Of a stretch of 45,925 nt of DNA, positions 4,886-16,856 are shown one piece after another (the first letter of the stretch is position 1; each line of letters starts with the position of its first letter). Under the pieces are notes generated by a model that searched no databases, was not told where the DNA came from, and saw only the letters and a list, made by a program, of their open reading frames with translations. Source of the DNA: Candidatus Pacearchaeota archaeon (GTDB lineage: Archaea > Nanobdellota > Nanobdellia > Pacearchaeales > GW2011-AR1); contig JAGVWP010000029.1 of NCBI GenBank assembly GCA_018304985.1, forward strand, positions 1-45,925, read 5' to 3'. The position numbers and the translations under genes are program-made.

Positions 4886-6148
4886 ATGGTCGGCAAAAGA
4901 GGCGGGTTTAAAAATATATTTAAGAAAGATGTCTTGTCATGGGCGCTTTATGATTTTGCTAACTCTTCTTATTCTCTTCTGATAATAAGTTTTATTTTTC
5001 CAATTTATTTTAAAGAAATTATTGCTGGAGCGCAATATGGGGATTTTTACTGGGGGCTTATCAGCAGTATATCAGTTCTATTGGCTGGGATAGTCTCTCC
5101 TGTTATCGGCGCTGCTGCTGATTATGATTACAGAAAAAAAAGAAAGTTTATCTTATGTGTAATCCTGTCAGCAATTGCAACCTTTCTGCTCTTTTTCAGC
5201 AAATCTGGAACTCTTATTTTTGCTTCTTTAGTGTTTATTGCCTCTAATTTATTCTTTTTACTAGCCTCTTCTCTTTACGATTCTTTTCTAGCCCATGTTT
5301 CTTCAAAGAAAAATGCCGGAACAGTATCTGGTCTTGGGTATGGATTAGGTTATTTAGGAGGAATTATAGCAATGCTTTTACTAAAACCTCTTTATACTAA
5401 TGGTTATTCAGGAGAATTTGAGGCATTATATAAACTCGTATTTCCCCTAACTGCATTATTCTTTATCTTATTCTCCTTACCTTCTTTTTATTATCTAAAA
5501 GAAAAAAGAATTGCCTCTAAAAATCCCAAAAAAGAGAGTTTTGTTAATTTAACAAAGATAGGATTTAGAGATACTTTCAAAAATCTTAAAGAATTAAGAA
5601 AAAATAAACCTCTTGCTTGGTTCTTAGTTGCTTTTTATTTTATGAATGATGCATTGGTAACTATTTTTGCCTTTATTTCCTTATATGCCATACAAACTCT
5701 CTCTTTATCAGTTTCTGAAGTAACTATTGTATTTTTAATAGTTCAAGTTGTTGGTATTCCTTCTGCTTTTTTATTAGGGTGGCTTGCAGATAAAAAAGGC
5801 CAAAGAAGAATATTATTAGCCAGTATAGCTCTTTGGATTTTGATAGTTTTTCTTTTGAGTTTTGGAAGCTCAAAGTTTATGATGTATCTAGTTGCTGTGC
5901 TTACAGGATTAGTTATTGGCGGCAGCCAGAGTATTGCTAGATCTTGGTTTAGCAACATTGTTCCAAGAAAAAAGAGATTTGGGTTATTTGGATTTAATAG
6001 CTTTGCTAGCAAAATCTCAGCCACAGTAGGGCCTGTTTTATTTGGAGCAATATCCTCTTTCTCAGGAAACCAAAGAATTGCTATGCTTTCTCTAGCTCCT
6101 TTTTTTATTATCTCATTTATAATATTTTCTAGAATTAAACAAGAGTAA
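4886..6148 (+). CDS. MFS transporter, UMF1/Atg22-like
   Basis: 12-TM; VLSWALYDFANSSYS signature; GWLADKKGQRR. Confidence 0.85.
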   Translation: MVGKRGGFKNIFKKDVLSWALYDFANSSYSLLIISFIFPIYFKEIIAGAQYGDFYWGLISSISVLLAGIVSPVIGAAADYDYRKKRKFILCVILSAIATFLLFFSKSGTLIFASLVFIASNLFFLLASSLYDSFLAHVSSKKNAGTVSGLGYGLGYLGGIIAMLLLKPLYTNGYSGEFEALYKLVFPLTALFFILFSLPSFYYLKEKRIASKNPKKESFVNLTKIGFRDTFKNLKELRKNKPLAWFLVAFYFMNDALVTIFAFISLYAIQTLSLSVSEVTIVFLIVQVVGIPSAFLLGWLADKKGQRRILLASIALWILIVFLLSFGSSKFMMYLVAVLTGLVIGGSQSIARSWFSNIVPRKKRFGLFGFNSFASKISATVGPVLFGAISSFSGNQRIAMLSLAPFFIISFIIFSRIKQE

Positions 6149-6211
6149 ATTAAACTCTTAAAGAAATTTCATCACAATAATTCTTAAAAAACGCCTTTTT
6201 TATTAATATTT

Positions 6212-6619
6212 ATGCCAAGAAAAGTTAAAACTTATACAAGGAAATTTGTATCAGAGAATAGAATTGCAAATTACAGAAATGAAAAGAGAAGGTTAAAACC
6301 AAATTATGTTGGGAGAAGTTCGCTTGATAGATGGGTTATGGAAAATGGAAAGAATCTTGAATATATAGAAAATGGCTGGAGGGGAGAAATAACAATCAAA
6401 GGGTATAAGTATAACATTGAGGCAAATTATGTTAATCATAGGCCCTTTAAAGTTGGGCAGGATTTAAATAAAGTAATGAGAAGCGGGAATACTATTTTAT
6501 TTGATGAAGAAATAACTATAATGTGGAAATGGAGAAAAGATATGCCCGATAGCTTGCTTAGACTTTTTATAGGTGAAAATAGATTAGGATTTTTTCAGTT
6601 TCAGGAAATTGAAATATAA
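6212..6619 (+). CDS. hypothetical protein
   Basis: 135 aa ORF, basic N-terminus. Confidence 0.6.
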   Translation: MPRKVKTYTRKFVSENRIANYRNEKRRLKPNYVGRSSLDRWVMENGKNLEYIENGWRGEITIKGYKYNIEANYVNHRPFKVGQDLNKVMRSGNTILFDEEITIMWKWRKDMPDSLLRLFIGENRLGFFQFQEIEI

Positions 6620-7138
6620 TTATTCTTCTTTATCAATCATATCCTGGATATATTGAGAAAAATATCCTGCATATCTTTCCCTTAATTCTGGTAGTTTCCA
6701 GTCATTTTCAGTAATCTTTTTTCTGCAATTTTCATAACCACAATTGCAATCCATTTCAAAAACAATATTGCTGCCTACTGATTCTGAAATAGTCATAGCA
6801 TAATCAAAAGTAATTTCTTCTCCTTTATTTATATCTCTAACTGCTACTAAAAATATTTGCCCATTAACCCCTGCATTTGGGTCGCAACTATGGTTAAAAA
6901 AGTCGGTATTGTCTGGTTTTTTAAGAGTTTTATTATATAGAACAAATCTTTCTTCAATCTGCACAGGATATTCCTGCAATTCTTCAGGCAAATCATCAAT
7001 TTCATCTATTAACAAAATATCTCCTCCAAAAATTGCCAGCCTCTCACCTTTTAGGATATTTGTTTTTGCAAATATGCCTTTTCCGTGTTTTTCAGAAACC
7101 ATCACACTTAATTTTGGATTTAACCAGCTGCTTTCCAT
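6620..7138 (-). CDS. SET-domain putative lysine methyltransferase with post-SET cysteines
   Basis: HGKGIFAKTNILKGE, DFFNHSCDPNAGVNG, INKGEEITFDYA, DCNCGYENCRKKI. Confidence 0.9.
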   Translation of the reverse strand: MESSWLNPKLSVMVSEKHGKGIFAKTNILKGERLAIFGGDILLIDEIDDLPEELQEYPVQIEERFVLYNKTLKKPDNTDFFNHSCDPNAGVNGQIFLVAVRDINKGEEITFDYAMTISESVGSNIVFEMDCNCGYENCRKKITENDWKLPELRERYAGYFSQYIQDMIDKEE

Positions 7139-7254: not shown

Positions 7255-10086
7255 ATGTACGACTTTAAACAAATTGAAGAAGAAGCTGCAAAGATATTAA
7301 GCAAAAAGGAAATACAGAAAGCTGTTGCTGATGATGGGAAAAGAAAAAAGCTATTTAGTTTCCTTGAAGGTCCTCCAACTGCAAATGCACCTCCCGGACT
7401 GCATCATCTTGAAGTACGAACTTACAAAGATATAATCAATAAGTTTAGGTATATGCAAGGATATAATGTTCCTAGAAAAGCTGGATGGGATTGTCACGGT
7501 CTGCCTATTGAGGTTCAGATTGAGAAAAAATTAGGATTAAACAGCAAGAAAGATATTTTAAAACACGGAGAGGCAAAATTCATAAAAGAATGCAAAAAGA
7601 GTGTTTTTTCTTATATAAAATCCTGGAATACTTCTACTAAAAAATTAAATTACTGGATTGATTTGGAAAATCCGTATGTTACTTTAGAAAATGATTATAT
7701 TGAAAGTGTTTGGTGGAGCTTGAAACAGCTTTATGATAAAAAACTTCTTTATGAAGCGCATAAGGTTGTTCCTTTCTGTCCTAGATGTGAAACTCCATTA
7801 TCAAGCCATGAAGTTGCTCAAGGATATAAAAAAGTAAAGGAAGATTCTGTTGTTGTTAAAATGAGGTTAAAAACAGGTGAGAATTTATTAGTTTGGACAA
7901 CTACTCCTTGGACGCTTCCGGCAAACTTAGCTGTTGTGGTAAATCCCGATATTGATTATGCCTATATTGAAGAAAGAGAAGTTTATATTGTTGCCAAAGA
8001 CCTTGCAGAGAAATTATTCGAAGATCCCAATATAATTAAAACAGTTAAAGGAAAAAAATTAATAGGCATGACATATGAACCTTTATTTAATTATTTTAAA
8101 AATTTAGAAAGCGAAAAAGCATTTAGGATAATTGGCGGGGATTTTGTAACAACAGAAGATGGAACAGGGTTAGTTCATATGGCTCCTGCTTTTGGAGAGG
8201 TGGATTATGATGTATGCAAGAAAGAAGGATTGCCTTTTATTCAGCCGGTTGATGAAACAGGCAAGTTTACAAGTGAGGTTCCAGATTTTCAAGGCAGATT
8301 TATAAAAAGCACTGATAAAGATATTATTAAAAAACTGGAAAACAGCAATCAGTTATTCAGGGTTATTCCTTATGATCATGATTATCCTTTCTGCTGGCGT
8401 TGCAATACACCGTTAATGTATTATGCAATTAAATCATGGTTTATTGCTGTTACAAAATACAAGAAAAGATTAATTCAGCTAAATGAAGAAATAAACTGGG
8501 TTCCGGAACATATTCGGGAAGGAAGATTTGGAGAATGGCTTGCAAATGTCAAAGATTGGGCATTATCAAGAAAAAAGTTCTGGGGAACTCCATTGCCAAT
8601 ATGGCGTTGCCAGCATTGCAGCAATGAAGAAGTCATTGGCAGTATTGAAGAGCTTAAGAAAAAATCCTTAAAAAAATTAAGTGATAAAGAAGTTGATCTG
8701 CATAAGCCTTGGATTGATAATGTAAAATTAAAATGTTCTAAATGCAAGAAAGAAATGTCAAGAGTTTCAGATGTAATTGACTGCTGGTATGATTCTGGAT
8801 CTGCGACTTTTGCGCAGTTTCACTATCCTTTTGAAAATAAAGATGAATTCAAAAAAAGATTTCCATATAATTTTATCTCAGAAGCAATAGATCAGACAAG
8901 AGGCTGGTTTTATACACTTCATGTTCTTGCAACAATATTATTTGATGATATTGCTTATAAAAATGTAATCTGCGCAGGACATATTGTTGATGAAAAAGGC
9001 GAGAAAATGTCAAAATCTAAAGGCAATATATTAAATCCTGATCAAGTGCTGAAAGAGGTTGGAGTTGATGCAACACGTCTTCAATTCTGCACTGTTGATA
9101 TTGGAGATTCAAAAAGATTTGGAATAAACCTTGTTAAAGAAGATATTATCCCGTTTTTGAATATCTTATGGAATACTTACCAGTTTTATAATCAGATTGA
9201 TAATGATGAAAAAGCTGAAGTAAAAGTTGAGGATAAGTGGATTATTTCCAGATTAAATTCAGTTATAAAAGCCTCAACTGAAGCTCTTGAAGCTTACAAG
9301 ATTGAAAAAGCTCTTTATCCTATAATGGATTTTGTTACAAAAGATTTCTCGAGAACATACATAAAAATAATAAGAGACAGAGAGGACAAAAATGTCAAGC
9401 TTGTTGTCGGAGAGGTAATTGATAAAATCTCGAGATTGCTTGCACCTTATGCTCCAAATATAACCGAAGTAATTCACAAATCTTTTAATAAAAGTTCAAA
9501 ATCTGTACATTTAGAATCATGGCCTGAATATGACAAGGGAAAAATAAATTCAAAGCTTGAAGAGGAATTTTCAGTTGCATTGAATATTATTGAAAAAGGA
9601 TTGGCTGAGAGGGATAAGTTAAAAATCGGTCTGAAATGGCCGTTGGCAAAAGCAACAATATATTTATCAGATAAATCTGTCTTTTCAAAAGCATTAAATG
9701 AAATTATTAAAAGTCAGCTTAATATAAAAGATATTAATATTAAACTTGGCAAAAAATTAAGTGAAATAAAAGTAGAATTTGACACAGAAACAACTCCAGA
9801 ACTGGAAGCTGAGGGTTATGCAAGAAATATTGCAAGACAAGTTCAAGGCTTCAGGAAAAAATTAGGAATGGTAAAAACTGATAAAATTCAGTTAACACTA
9901 GCAGTAAGTAGTGATATTCAATTATTGTTGCAGAGGCAAGAAATGTTTATTAAGGACAGAACAAATGCTATTAGAATTTCAATAACCTCAGATAAAGGAG
10001 CAAGCCTTAAACTAAAGGGTTTTTCCGAGGATAAATTTAATATAAAAGACCGGGAAATAACTATTTATCTAAAGAAAAACAAGTAA
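7255..10086 (+). CDS. ileS: isoleucyl-tRNA synthetase
   Basis: GPPTANAPPGLHHLEVRTYKDI, GWDCHGLPIEV, GEKMSKSKGN; ATG at 7255 is a more likely start than 7240. Confidence 0.95.
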   Translation: MYDFKQIEEEAAKILSKKEIQKAVADDGKRKKLFSFLEGPPTANAPPGLHHLEVRTYKDIINKFRYMQGYNVPRKAGWDCHGLPIEVQIEKKLGLNSKKDILKHGEAKFIKECKKSVFSYIKSWNTSTKKLNYWIDLENPYVTLENDYIESVWWSLKQLYDKKLLYEAHKVVPFCPRCETPLSSHEVAQGYKKVKEDSVVVKMRLKTGENLLVWTTTPWTLPANLAVVVNPDIDYAYIEEREVYIVAKDLAEKLFEDPNIIKTVKGKKLIGMTYEPLFNYFKNLESEKAFRIIGGDFVTTEDGTGLVHMAPAFGEVDYDVCKKEGLPFIQPVDETGKFTSEVPDFQGRFIKSTDKDIIKKLENSNQLFRVIPYDHDYPFCWRCNTPLMYYAIKSWFIAVTKYKKRLIQLNEEINWVPEHIREGRFGEWLANVKDWALSRKKFWGTPLPIWRCQHCSNEEVIGSIEELKKKSLKKLSDKEVDLHKPWIDNVKLKCSKCKKEMSRVSDVIDCWYDSGSATFAQFHYPFENKDEFKKRFPYNFISEAIDQTRGWFYTLHVLATILFDDIAYKNVICAGHIVDEKGEKMSKSKGNILNPDQVLKEVGVDATRLQFCTVDIGDSKRFGINLVKEDIIPFLNILWNTYQFYNQIDNDEKAEVKVEDKWIISRLNSVIKASTEALEAYKIEKALYPIMDFVTKDFSRTYIKIIRDREDKNVKLVVGEVIDKISRLLAPYAPNITEVIHKSFNKSSKSVHLESWPEYDKGKINSKLEEEFSVALNIIEKGLAERDKLKIGLKWPLAKATIYLSDKSVFSKALNEIIKSQLNIKDINIKLGKKLSEIKVEFDTETTPELEAEGYARNIARQVQGFRKKLGMVKTDKIQLTLAVSSDIQLLLQRQEMFIKDRTNAIRISITSDKGASLKLKGFSEDKFNIKDREITIYLKKNK

Positions 10087-14243: not shown

Positions 14244-14277
14244 ACTTTTTAAACAAATAACTAAAATTTAAACCTTC

Positions 14278-14499
14278 CTAATTCACTTTTTTCAAAGAAA
14301 ATAACCTCTCAATTTTATTAGTCTTTTTTCCCTGCCTTTCTTTAACAAGATTCATCTTTTTCATAAACTCAAGAGCTTTAATAGTAGTCTCCCATTGAGA
14401 TTTAACTTCTTCTGATATTCCTTTAACTGATAATTCTTTTTCTTTATTCAGCAATTTAATAATATCTTCAATAACATCAAGTATATTTCTTCTTCCCAT
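14278..14499 (-). CDS. small winged-helix-like transcriptional regulator
   Basis: 73 aa; DVIEDIIKLLNKEKELSVKGISEEVKSQWETTIKALEFMKKMNLVKERQGKK. Confidence 0.65.
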   Translation of the reverse strand: MGRRNILDVIEDIIKLLNKEKELSVKGISEEVKSQWETTIKALEFMKKMNLVKERQGKKTNKIERLFSLKKVN

Positions 14500-14554
14500 C
14501 TGTGTAAAAGCACAGATAGTTTTTTATACCAAATATGTGTAATTATACAGATAG
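14498..14554. promoter_or_regulatory. tandem inverted-repeat operators between divergent genes
   Basis: ATCTGTG-taaaag-CACAGAT (14498-14517) and ATATGTGTAATTATACAGATAG (14533-14554). Confidence 0.7.
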
Positions 14555-14559
14555 ATAAA

Positions 14560-14772
14560 ATGGCAAGCTGGAGCTTTTCTAATGGTTTGGACTATGGACT
14601 AAATGATACTTGGAGTATTGCTTACGAAATGAAACAGAAAAATATAATTGGTGAAAAGGCTTCTTTATGGTTGTTATTGGGTGTGGGATTAGTTAGTTTA
14701 TTTCTTCTTTGGAGATTGAGAAGAAGATTAAGAATTAAAACTATTAAGCAGCAATACCTAAGTTATGCTTAA
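14560..14772 (+). CDS. small single-pass membrane protein
   Basis: 70 aa; TM SLWLLLGVGLVSLFLLWRL. Confidence 0.55.
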   Translation: MASWSFSNGLDYGLNDTWSIAYEMKQKNIIGEKASLWLLLGVGLVSLFLLWRLRRRLRIKTIKQQYLSYA

Positions 14773-15028
14773 ATTGTAATTTTGCTATATTAAACATTTG
14801 TTTAACTTCTTCAGATAAATTCTCTTCAAATAGCTCTTTTTTTGAGTTTAACTTTAATTTAATATATTCGTCAGCACAAGATCTTGAAATAAAATAAATA
14901 TCTTTAAAATCTAATATTATATTCTTTTCAGAACTACGATTAACAAAATCAAAAAATTCAGACATTGCTTTCCTTGTTACAATATTATCAAAAAAGAAAT
15001 GCTTCAGGAAAATTCTTTCTGTAGCCAT
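14744..15028 (-). CDS. STAS-like (DUF4325-type) protein
   Basis: IILDFKDIYFISRSCADEYIKLKL matches the DUF4325 pattern. Confidence 0.75.
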   Translation of the reverse strand: MATERIFLKHFFFDNIVTRKAMSEFFDFVNRSSEKNIILDFKDIYFISRSCADEYIKLKLNSKKELFEENLSEEVKQMFNIAKLQFKHNLGIAA

Positions 15029-15029
15029 A

Positions 15030-15479
15030 TTATTCTACATACTCATAGATATTTAAGTCTTTCTCAGGAACCTTAAATCTCATGTATACAAAAGTACCAT
15101 TTAAAGGAGCATCAATGTCCATATTAACCGGTTCTTGATTAGGCTTTATAATAACTAATCCGTTTCTGGATAAAATGTGAAATTCTCCATTTAGACCCTC
15201 CTGCACAAGTCTTTTTGATGTTCCAAGACCTCGCCCTCTTCCAGATTCGTTAATTTTCGTAGAAACTCCTCTTAGTGCTTTTAGGATTGCATCACTATCA
15301 CTTAAAAAAGAAATAGAGTTTGTAGAATAAACTCCTGGAATTGTAAGACCATTATCTAAAACCCCTATGTCAATATGTCCTTTATTCTTAAAAAACTGCA
15401 CCATTACTGAACCATGAGTAAATTCGGAATGTTCACTTATATTATCCGATAATTCTGATACTAAATAAAAAGCTCCCAT
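15030..15479 (-). CDS. HATPase_c ATP-binding protein (anti-sigma/histidine-kinase-like ATPase); true N-terminus may lie upstream
   Basis: N-box LVSELSDNISEHSEF, GVLDNGLTIP, GRGRGLGTSKRLVQEGLNGEFHILSRNG. Confidence 0.8.
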   Translation of the reverse strand: MGAFYLVSELSDNISEHSEFTHGSVMVQFFKNKGHIDIGVLDNGLTIPGVYSTNSISFLSDSDAILKALRGVSTKINESGRGRGLGTSKRLVQEGLNGEFHILSRNGLVIIKPNQEPVNMDIDAPLNGTFVYMRFKVPEKDLNIYEYVE

Positions 15480-15541
15480 ATGGGTGTTTTTTGGAAAATT
15501 ATCTTTTATTACTTTTAAAACTTGATTTATTTCTTCTTCAA

Positions 15542-15889
15542 TTACTTTTGGGACTCTTTCCTTTCATTTATTGAAAAATGGTGTATTGGCATATAAGTAA
15601 GACTTGACCCTTCTTTTCCAAAGGGAAAACCAACTATAGAAAGATAATTTTTTACACTTTTATTCAATGGTTCCTTAAAAACAATATTTTGGCCTGTTTT
15701 ATTTACTTGAGATATTTTATCACTTAATAATAAAGCAGAACAAGGTAAAATCCATTCAAGATTAGTTAAGTCTATAATTAATTCTGGTTTATTAAGGCTT
15801 AATTCATTATCAATCTCTTTGATTATAACCAAACAATCTTTTATCTGTTGTAATGGATCATCACAATTTTTTAAGTTTACTTCAACCAT
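15542..15889 (-). CDS. STAS-domain protein
   Basis: ELIIDLTNLEWILPCSALLLSDKI...YLSIVGF. Confidence 0.65.
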   Translation of the reverse strand: MVEVNLKNCDDPLQQIKDCLVIIKEIDNELSLNKPELIIDLTNLEWILPCSALLLSDKISQVNKTGQNIVFKEPLNKSVKNYLSIVGFPFGKEGSSLTYMPIHHFSINERKESQK

Positions 15890-16038
15890 CGATCAACTAA
15901 AAAAAGATACTTTAAATCTTTTTATATCCCCAAACCTACTTCTTTTTTAATAATCCATTTTTATTTTTTAGAATTCTAATAATAAATTTAAAAAACTAAA
16001 AGAAGAAAAAGGAAAAATAAAAAACTAAAAACAAAAAT

Positions 16039-16377
16039 TTAATTTCTAGCCAAACTAAAGACATTCTTGATTGCTACAATTACTGTAGCAGGTGTGAAAA
16101 TTGCGAGCAATGCAGCCAATATTCCTTCAACATACATAACTCCTGTAAACACGCTTCCGCCCAATGCACTTGCTATGATTAACACAGCTCCTGAAAGCAA
16201 GAACGGAGTTACTTCTTTGCCTGTAACATTCAATAATCCCACTATTAATCCTATTAGAACAAGGACAAGTATCCAAACGCCGTCAGCAGCACCCATTGCT
16301 CCAAGGATTACAGCAAGAACTACGCCGGCTAGAAAAGCCCAACTTGCTAATTTACCCAAACTATTTCCTTTTGCCAT
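16039..16377 (-). CDS. small multi-TM membrane protein, paralogue of 16442-16657
   Basis: MAKGNSLGKLASWAFLAGVVLAVILG...; SD aaaggagg. Confidence 0.65.
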   Translation of the reverse strand: MAKGNSLGKLASWAFLAGVVLAVILGAMGAADGVWILVLVLIGLIVGLLNVTGKEVTPFLLSGAVLIIASALGGSVFTGVMYVEGILAALLAIFTPATVIVAIKNVFSLARN

Positions 16378-16441
16378 TTATACCTCCTTTTAATTTTTTT
16401 AATTATGAAACTTCCTTATTTCGTTATATTTTAATTATATT

Positions 16442-16657
16442 TTAAGTCAAGTAATCAATAATTGCAAGCACCACTCCAAGAACTGTTGTTATAATTACTA
16501 CCCACCCTGCAATTAGCGCTATTGGCTCTCCACCAAGCCATTTTGGAAGAGCGAGAGTTCCATCAGCCATTGCAAATGCAACTGACAAAGAAACAATAAT
16601 TCCTGTAAGCCAGATAACGAAACTTAAAATTTTTCTAAGTGATGCACTTTTAGCCAT
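16442..16657 (-). CDS. small two-TM membrane protein, paralogue of 16039-16377
   Basis: MAKSASLRKILSFVIWLTGIIVSLSVAFA; SD aaaagagg. Confidence 0.6.
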   Translation of the reverse strand: MAKSASLRKILSFVIWLTGIIVSLSVAFAMADGTLALPKWLGGEPIALIAGWVVIITTVLGVVLAIIDYLT

Positions 16658-16739
16658 TTTTCATCCTCTTTTTATTAAATAATATCATCCTAACAATGAT
16701 ATTCTAGTATATATTTTGCAGTATATAAAGGTTTTGCTG

Positions 16740-16856
16740 ATGTTAAGTAAAATATCAAACTTAACATTTGCTCTTCATCTCTTGGTATCGAGCTAATACC
16801 TATTATTAGTAAAAAAATTAGCGAAATCTCCGAGCAGGAAGGTTTACTTAACAGCT
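16740..16856 (+). ncRNA. candidate structured RNA with mutually exclusive stems
   Basis: GTTAAGTAAA (16742-16751) pairs with TTTACTTAAC (16843-16852) or ATGTTAAG with CTTAACAT (16760-16767); GGTAT/ATACC hairpin; TATA-like gtatataaag upstream. Confidence 0.4.

Follow-up and report, generated by a model that had tools for sequence, protein, structure and literature searches.

A split gene for a probable STAS-GHKL kinase and its STAS-like partner in an exchangeable cassette of a Candidatus Pacearchaeota genome

A split gene for a probable kinase, followed by a partner gene

The window, i.e. the whole stretch of 45,925 nucleotides that was analysed, is contig JAGVWP010000029.1 of a Candidatus Pacearchaeota archaeon with a genome of 0.97 Mb in 44 contigs (88% complete), in which the kinase and the partner described here are each present in one copy. 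Three consecutive ORFs are found on the minus strand (Table 1) exactly where the original prediction placed them, the middle one spanning 15030–15479 (149 aa) when it is read from its first ATG. They had been described as three separate genes encoding a STAS protein, a GHKL-type ATPase and a DUF4325-like STAS protein, but judging from the sequences the first two are the halves of one STAS-GHKL gene that is split here, and the locus consists of this gene and a single partner gene. In relatives the two ORFs form one chain of 266–290 aa (285 aa in L034, a Candidatus Pacearchaeota genome, which is the same contig as the nearest relative, G364 of the same family; 266 aa in L005; likewise fused in L035, L038 and L046). 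A profile of the fused family, A5, matches the window in two adjoining pieces in the genome search, at 15545–15883 (profile positions 3–105, E 1.2e-12) and 15033–15539 (positions 100–272, E 3.4e-68), with no third match in the source genome, and the three-gene reading is thereby ruled out. The same two pieces are covered by the PHROG family phrog_3364 (304 aa) with its positions 21–92 and 125–294, the latter with an E-value of 1.2e-29.

Table 1. Features of the kinase-partner locus in the window.
Feature	Position	Strand	Basis or remark
First half of the STAS-GHKL protein, with the N-terminal STAS domain, 115-aa ORF	15542..15889	-	own weak STAS match, fused-family profile, phrog_3364
Second half of this protein, with the GHKL (HATPase_c) domain, 177 aa of open frame	15030..15563	-	PF02518, phrog_3364, fused-family profile
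Region shared by the two frames, with the break of the fused frame (-1 relation)	15542..15563	-	uninterrupted in L034, L035, L005, L038 and L046
STAS-like (DUF4325/VapS-like) partner, 94 aa	14744..15028	-	starts 1 nt past the kinase stop
Ser48-Arg49-Ser50 codons of the partner	14879..14887	-	Arg49 in the acceptor Ser column of VapS/SpoIIAA
Trp46 codon, conserved aromatic of the N-terminal STAS half	15752-15754	-	
Exchangeable slot	14678..15964	.	L070 of the same genus has these flanks around another gene pair

The profile searches proposed with the prediction returned matches for both domain types. HATPase_c is recognized in the middle ORF above the curated cut-off (PF02518, E 8.7e-7) and the GHKL boxes are invariant in the kinase alignment, which confirms the ATPase. 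The first ORF gives a weak STAS match when taken alone (TIGR00377, E 0.016), and its assignment holds through the N-terminal match of the fused family, although not as a separate protein. The GHKL frame is open from 15563, and according to the L034 model a start at the ATG at 15479 would remove a strand and a helix ahead of the N-box. The break between the two halves may be a real frameshift or an assembly error. A programmed frameshift appears less likely, as inspection of the 21-nt overlap by eye gave no convincing slippery site. The kinase gene is broken or shortened also in L036 (G261), L042, L007 (G027) and L004 (G190), with an intact partner ORF in each; the break in L036 sits at a run of eight C, and the gene in L042 is interrupted by a short palindromic insert at about 6199–6243. 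Given these breaks, here and in several relatives, some copies of the module may be dead.

The partner is a single STAS domain. Its predicted structure (mean pLDDT 92.9) matches TM1442, SpoIIAA, RsbV and SLC26 STAS domains with modest E-values (Foldseek best E 0.027, probability 1.00), and on the basis of this model the small protein has a STAS fold. Among the sequences in PDB the best match to it is Escherichia VapS, 9Z7O (E 7.5e-4 with one profile and 3.4e-3 with another). The window partner has no meaningful match in Pfam, where it does not reach the curated cut-off of DUF4325 (PF14213), and the partner in L002 is also below it; those in L005, L038 and L048 exceed it (E-values of 2.5e-7, 6.8e-6 and 6.5e-7 among the relatives), and together with the structural matches this bears out the DUF4325-like STAS assignment of the third ORF. 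The model of the fused L034 kinase (mean pLDDT 88.1), which contains the STAS and GHKL domains alone in its 285 aa, has SpoIIAB as its best match (E 1.3e-4, probability 1.00). PADLOC gave weak matches to DrmA and Cyclase, which at best reflect a shared GHKL fold and are uninformative on function.

Relation to CapKS, VapKSC and sigma-directed switches

CapK and VapK are STAS-GHKL kinases encoded ahead of a STAS partner (PMC13373217). CapK is activated by ssDNA, upon which CapS is phosphorylated and an immune promoter is freed, and VapS inhibits the PIN nuclease VapC, which is freed by a phosphomimetic change in VapS (PMC13373217). The VapKSC operon protects against a phage (PMC13373217; EMBO J 2026). 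These systems are from diverse bacteria, the word "archaea" being found just in one cited title (PMC13373217).

The module resembles VapKSC of Escherichia sp. E4736 in its gene order, with a gene for a single-domain STAS protein after that of the STAS-GHKL kinase, in the VapS match of the partner, and in the PIN-like third gene that is added in insert IFa of phage psiM100. The kinase of VapKSC is one chain of STAS and GHKL, as it is in relatives of the window kinase, whereas it is split in the window. VapKSC has an adjacent VapC PIN gene and the window cassette has none; VapS has a conserved acceptor Ser48 where the window partner has Arg49 with a Ser on either side; and the C-terminal tail of VapS, residues 94–116, blocks VapC, whereas the window partner stops at residue 94 (longer tails are present in L005, L038 and L048). 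VapKSC is moreover described from bacteria and the window module is archaeal. The arrangement of a STAS-GHKL kinase gene ahead of a STAS partner gene is shared also with CapKS, but CapK is an HTH-STAS-GHKL protein and the window kinase is without the N-terminal HTH, CapS is a promoter-binding STAS-wHTH protein and the window partner is without the wHTH, and the immune operon downstream of CapKS has no counterpart in the cassette. Since there is no PIN, no HTH or wHTH and the acceptor is shifted, the window module is, by sequence, a variant and not VapKSC or CapKS proper. The original prediction was incomplete in that it included neither this kinship nor the swappable nature of the cassette.

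The acceptor Ser48 of VapS, nine residues after an Asp (the chain reads LDFSNVKMFASPFF), aligns without gaps with Arg49 of the window partner, and so does the acceptor of a canonical anti-anti-sigma protein. Arg occupies position 49 in 18 of the 19 partners of family 1, and the second family has Gln there, while position 48 is Ser or Thr in every partner row aligned and position 50 is Ser in all rows save L047. In the partner model Ser48 lies just ahead of the helix 49–61, with Ser50 inside its first turn. The Ser that had been flagged in the ISRS motif is thus off the acceptor position of SpoIIAA and VapS, but Ser48 and Ser50 remain as flanking candidate phospho-acceptors, if phosphorylation occurs. 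The occupation of the acceptor position by Arg or Gln would also be consistent with an ATP-driven switch without phosphotransfer, in which the partner stays unphosphorylated and acts on the ATPase site through Arg49. This we regard as unlikely, as Ser/Thr48 and Ser50 are nearly invariant too, and we know of no GHKL-STAS pair that works that way. In the N-terminal STAS domain, the family-1 rows read have an aromatic residue six positions after the conserved Asp and a Pro at nine, in the window Trp46, which corresponds to Trp45 of L034, and Pro49, the latter where the acceptor Ser would sit. This domain was considered as a second substrate and rejected, since with Pro at the acceptor position it should not be a second phosphorylatable antagonist. 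The ssDNA-site residues are W68 in CapK and F54 in VapK (WP_135559716.1 in Escherichia; PMC13373217), and the conserved aromatic at D+6 is at most suggestive of activation by ssDNA as in CapK.

The SpoIIAB fold of the L034 kinase model and the STAS partner also recall the pairs SpoIIAB/RsbW and SpoIIAA/RsbV, but the module kinase bears its own STAS domain, and the window partner, which matches the STAS fold of SpoIIAA/RsbV, has no acceptor Ser at D+9 as the register differs. The SpoIIAB/RsbW switches act on a sigma factor, whereas archaea are without bona fide sigma factors (PMC2686161); the predicted resemblance to a partner switch in an archaeal host, with a target other than a sigma factor, is upheld. 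In 2009, Methanomicrobiales were reported to possess sets similar to SpoIIAA, SpoIIAB and SpoIIE, whose targets were unknown (PMC2686161). These sets are likewise archaeal GHKL/STAS switches, but they have a serine phosphatase and were described as a signature of the order, whereas the window module is a mobile two-gene cassette. No SpoIIE-type phosphatase (PF07228) was found in ten module-bearing genomes (the genome of the window being 88% complete), and control genomes were positive. A reversible switch of the SpoIIAA/SpoIIAB type, whose target would be TFB, TBP or another transcription factor instead of the sigma factor, would fit with the SpoIIAB-like fold and with the Methanomicrobiales sets, but with this phosphatase result, a different acceptor register and a sporadic, mobile distribution it is unlikely.

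Distribution, mobility and neighbouring genes

The partner ORF is located directly after the kinase in the module loci read, with one exception at a contig end, with a spacing of about -45 to +50 nt across the loci surveyed. In the searched genomes the partner is present solely beside the kinase. The neighbourhood survey that had been proposed thus shows that synteny is kept in relatives, as a two-gene module. A Nostoc plasmid protein carries HATPase_c (E 2.7e-6) and DUF4325 (E 1.4e-13) in one chain, and this natural fusion argues for a physical partnership; the two are likely a kinase and its substrate. The pair is found in DPANN loci, in Methanomassiliicoccales (L038, L040, L041) and Thermoplasmata (L044, L045), on a Halobaculum plasmid (L051), in the Methanothermobacter provirus psiM100 (L048), and among bacteria in Bacteroides and a Bacteroides phage (L043, L049), Rhodonellum (L046) and Berkelbacteria (L047). 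As phage protein families the two proteins correspond to phrog_3364 and phrog_20761, both labelled "unknown function" in PHROG. A more distant pair, family 2, consists of a GHKL protein of about 320 aa and a 96-aa DUF4325 protein with a conserved TQSF, encoded by overlapping genes (DUF4325 E 3.5e-13; TIGR01925 spIIAB E 1.1e-6), and turns up in several other genomes of this class (L008–L021, e.g. L011:1102-2357). In a tree of 26 kinases the archaeal family-1 rows form one group (92/91) with the Bacteroides and phage rows beside it, and family 2 is placed elsewhere. No relatives were found with the single window protein as query against the genome contigs, or with A3 against viral contigs, and the literature on archaeal DUF4325, or STAS combined with HATPase, yielded no statement on function when searched. 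On a Streptococcus agalactiae plasmid with phage lysis genes, an annotated sensor kinase gene and a STAS-like gene directly follow the lysozyme gene (L055:2572-3770).

The pair is absent from four genomes of the same genus. In one genome of the genus (G286, L070) the flanks of the slot align with the window at 14269–14677 (87% DNA identity) and 15965–16740 (90%), and the slot instead holds genes for a DUF5678 protein and an aspartyl-protease-like protein (L070:5484-6349). Because of this different gene pair in the same slot, the module is, as far as these sequences tell, an exchangeable accessory cassette of 1.3 kb, usually without an effector. A VapBC pair is located between ArgS and the flanking 112-aa gene in another genome (G138, L068:1165-1796), and the region beside ArgS is in this genus host to differing accessory pairs, the DUF5678 with aspartyl-protease-like pair and VapBC. 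Also in the flank, window 14278–14515 encodes a winged-helix protein of 73 aa that is 93% identical to its counterpart in G286, with a palindrome CTGTG-N6-CACAG and a TATA-like stretch directly preceding the gene start, perhaps its own operator. In L042 the module is located between 114-nt direct repeats of 98% identity (5755–5868 and 6910–7023) whose sequence is that of a peroxiredoxin gene end. In psiM100 it constitutes most of insert IFa (L048:4661-7453), where ORFB is VapK-like, ORFC VapS-like and ORFD PIN-like, the last with a PIN-like N-terminus below the cut-off (PF01850, E 0.011); the record notes of psiM100 name MTH315/MTH316 as homologues. By its gene content IFa is a candidate archaeal VapKSC.

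No PIN gene (PF01850) was found on the window contig, though PIN genes are common in these genomes. In L045 a PIN gene is located directly upstream of the module. Nucleotidyltransferase/HEPN pairs are found near two relatives of the module (L034:7338-8413; L036:4274-5460 and 8597-9683). No adjacent effector is conserved across the loci, where PIN, nucleotidyltransferase/HEPN and others were looked for. The module could be a two-gene toxin-antitoxin or anti-virus unit, with the partner itself or a host protein held by it as the effector, considering the other gene pair in the same slot, the adjoining VapBC in a second genome of the genus, the carriage by provirus, phage and plasmid, and the PIN or nucleotidyltransferase/HEPN genes near some copies. 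This remains a tentative possibility, as the effector neighbour varies between loci and PADLOC has no model for the module, the weak GHKL matches aside. The broken kinase genes, in the window and in L036, L042, L007 and L004, and the window contig without PIN could also be understood if the locus were the decaying remnant of a VapKSC-like toxin or defence locus that has lost its effector and kinase frame and is inactive here. We find this doubtful, given that the conserved motifs are retained in both halves and every one of these loci has an intact partner, that L034, L035, L005, L038 and L046 are intact two-gene modules without PIN, and that a homopolymer as in L036 is a usual site of assembly errors.

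The proposed switch and its implications

In the preferred reading, which we consider probable, the two genes make up a mobile partner-switch cassette that is the archaeal counterpart of the bacterial CapKS/VapKS. The large protein, if the split copy is in working state, would be a STAS-GHKL Ser/Thr kinase, and the small STAS-like protein an adaptor that in the resting state binds and holds a target. By analogy with CapK the activating signal, ssDNA or DNA damage, may be perceived at the groove between STAS and GHKL, and the kinase would then transfer phosphate to Ser48 or Ser50 of the adaptor, where helix 2 begins, and the target would be released. The switch is more likely one-way than reversible, since no SpoIIE-type phosphatase was found. 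The cassette itself contains no target, and the target gene must be at another locus; in VapKSC, by contrast, the PIN toxin gene is next to the switch genes.

With a kinase-STAS switch that travels on an exchangeable cassette among organisms lacking sigma factors, the targets of archaeal anti-sigma-like kinases become directly testable, a question that dates from the Methanomicrobiales report (PMC2686161). The long-known and unexplained insert IFa of psiM100 is tied to a mechanism of defence whose bacterial form was characterised in 2026, and the two phage protein families phrog_3364 and phrog_20761 gain a mechanism to test. A further-reaching reading, speculative and in our view rather unlikely, is that of a self-sufficient mobile phospho-switch of archaea that senses virus or DNA damage, controls a non-sigma target encoded in trans and has its acceptor shifted beside an invariant Arg, with IFa of psiM100 as the PIN-armed form. 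If true, archaea and their viruses would thereby have their first defence system resembling VapKSC.
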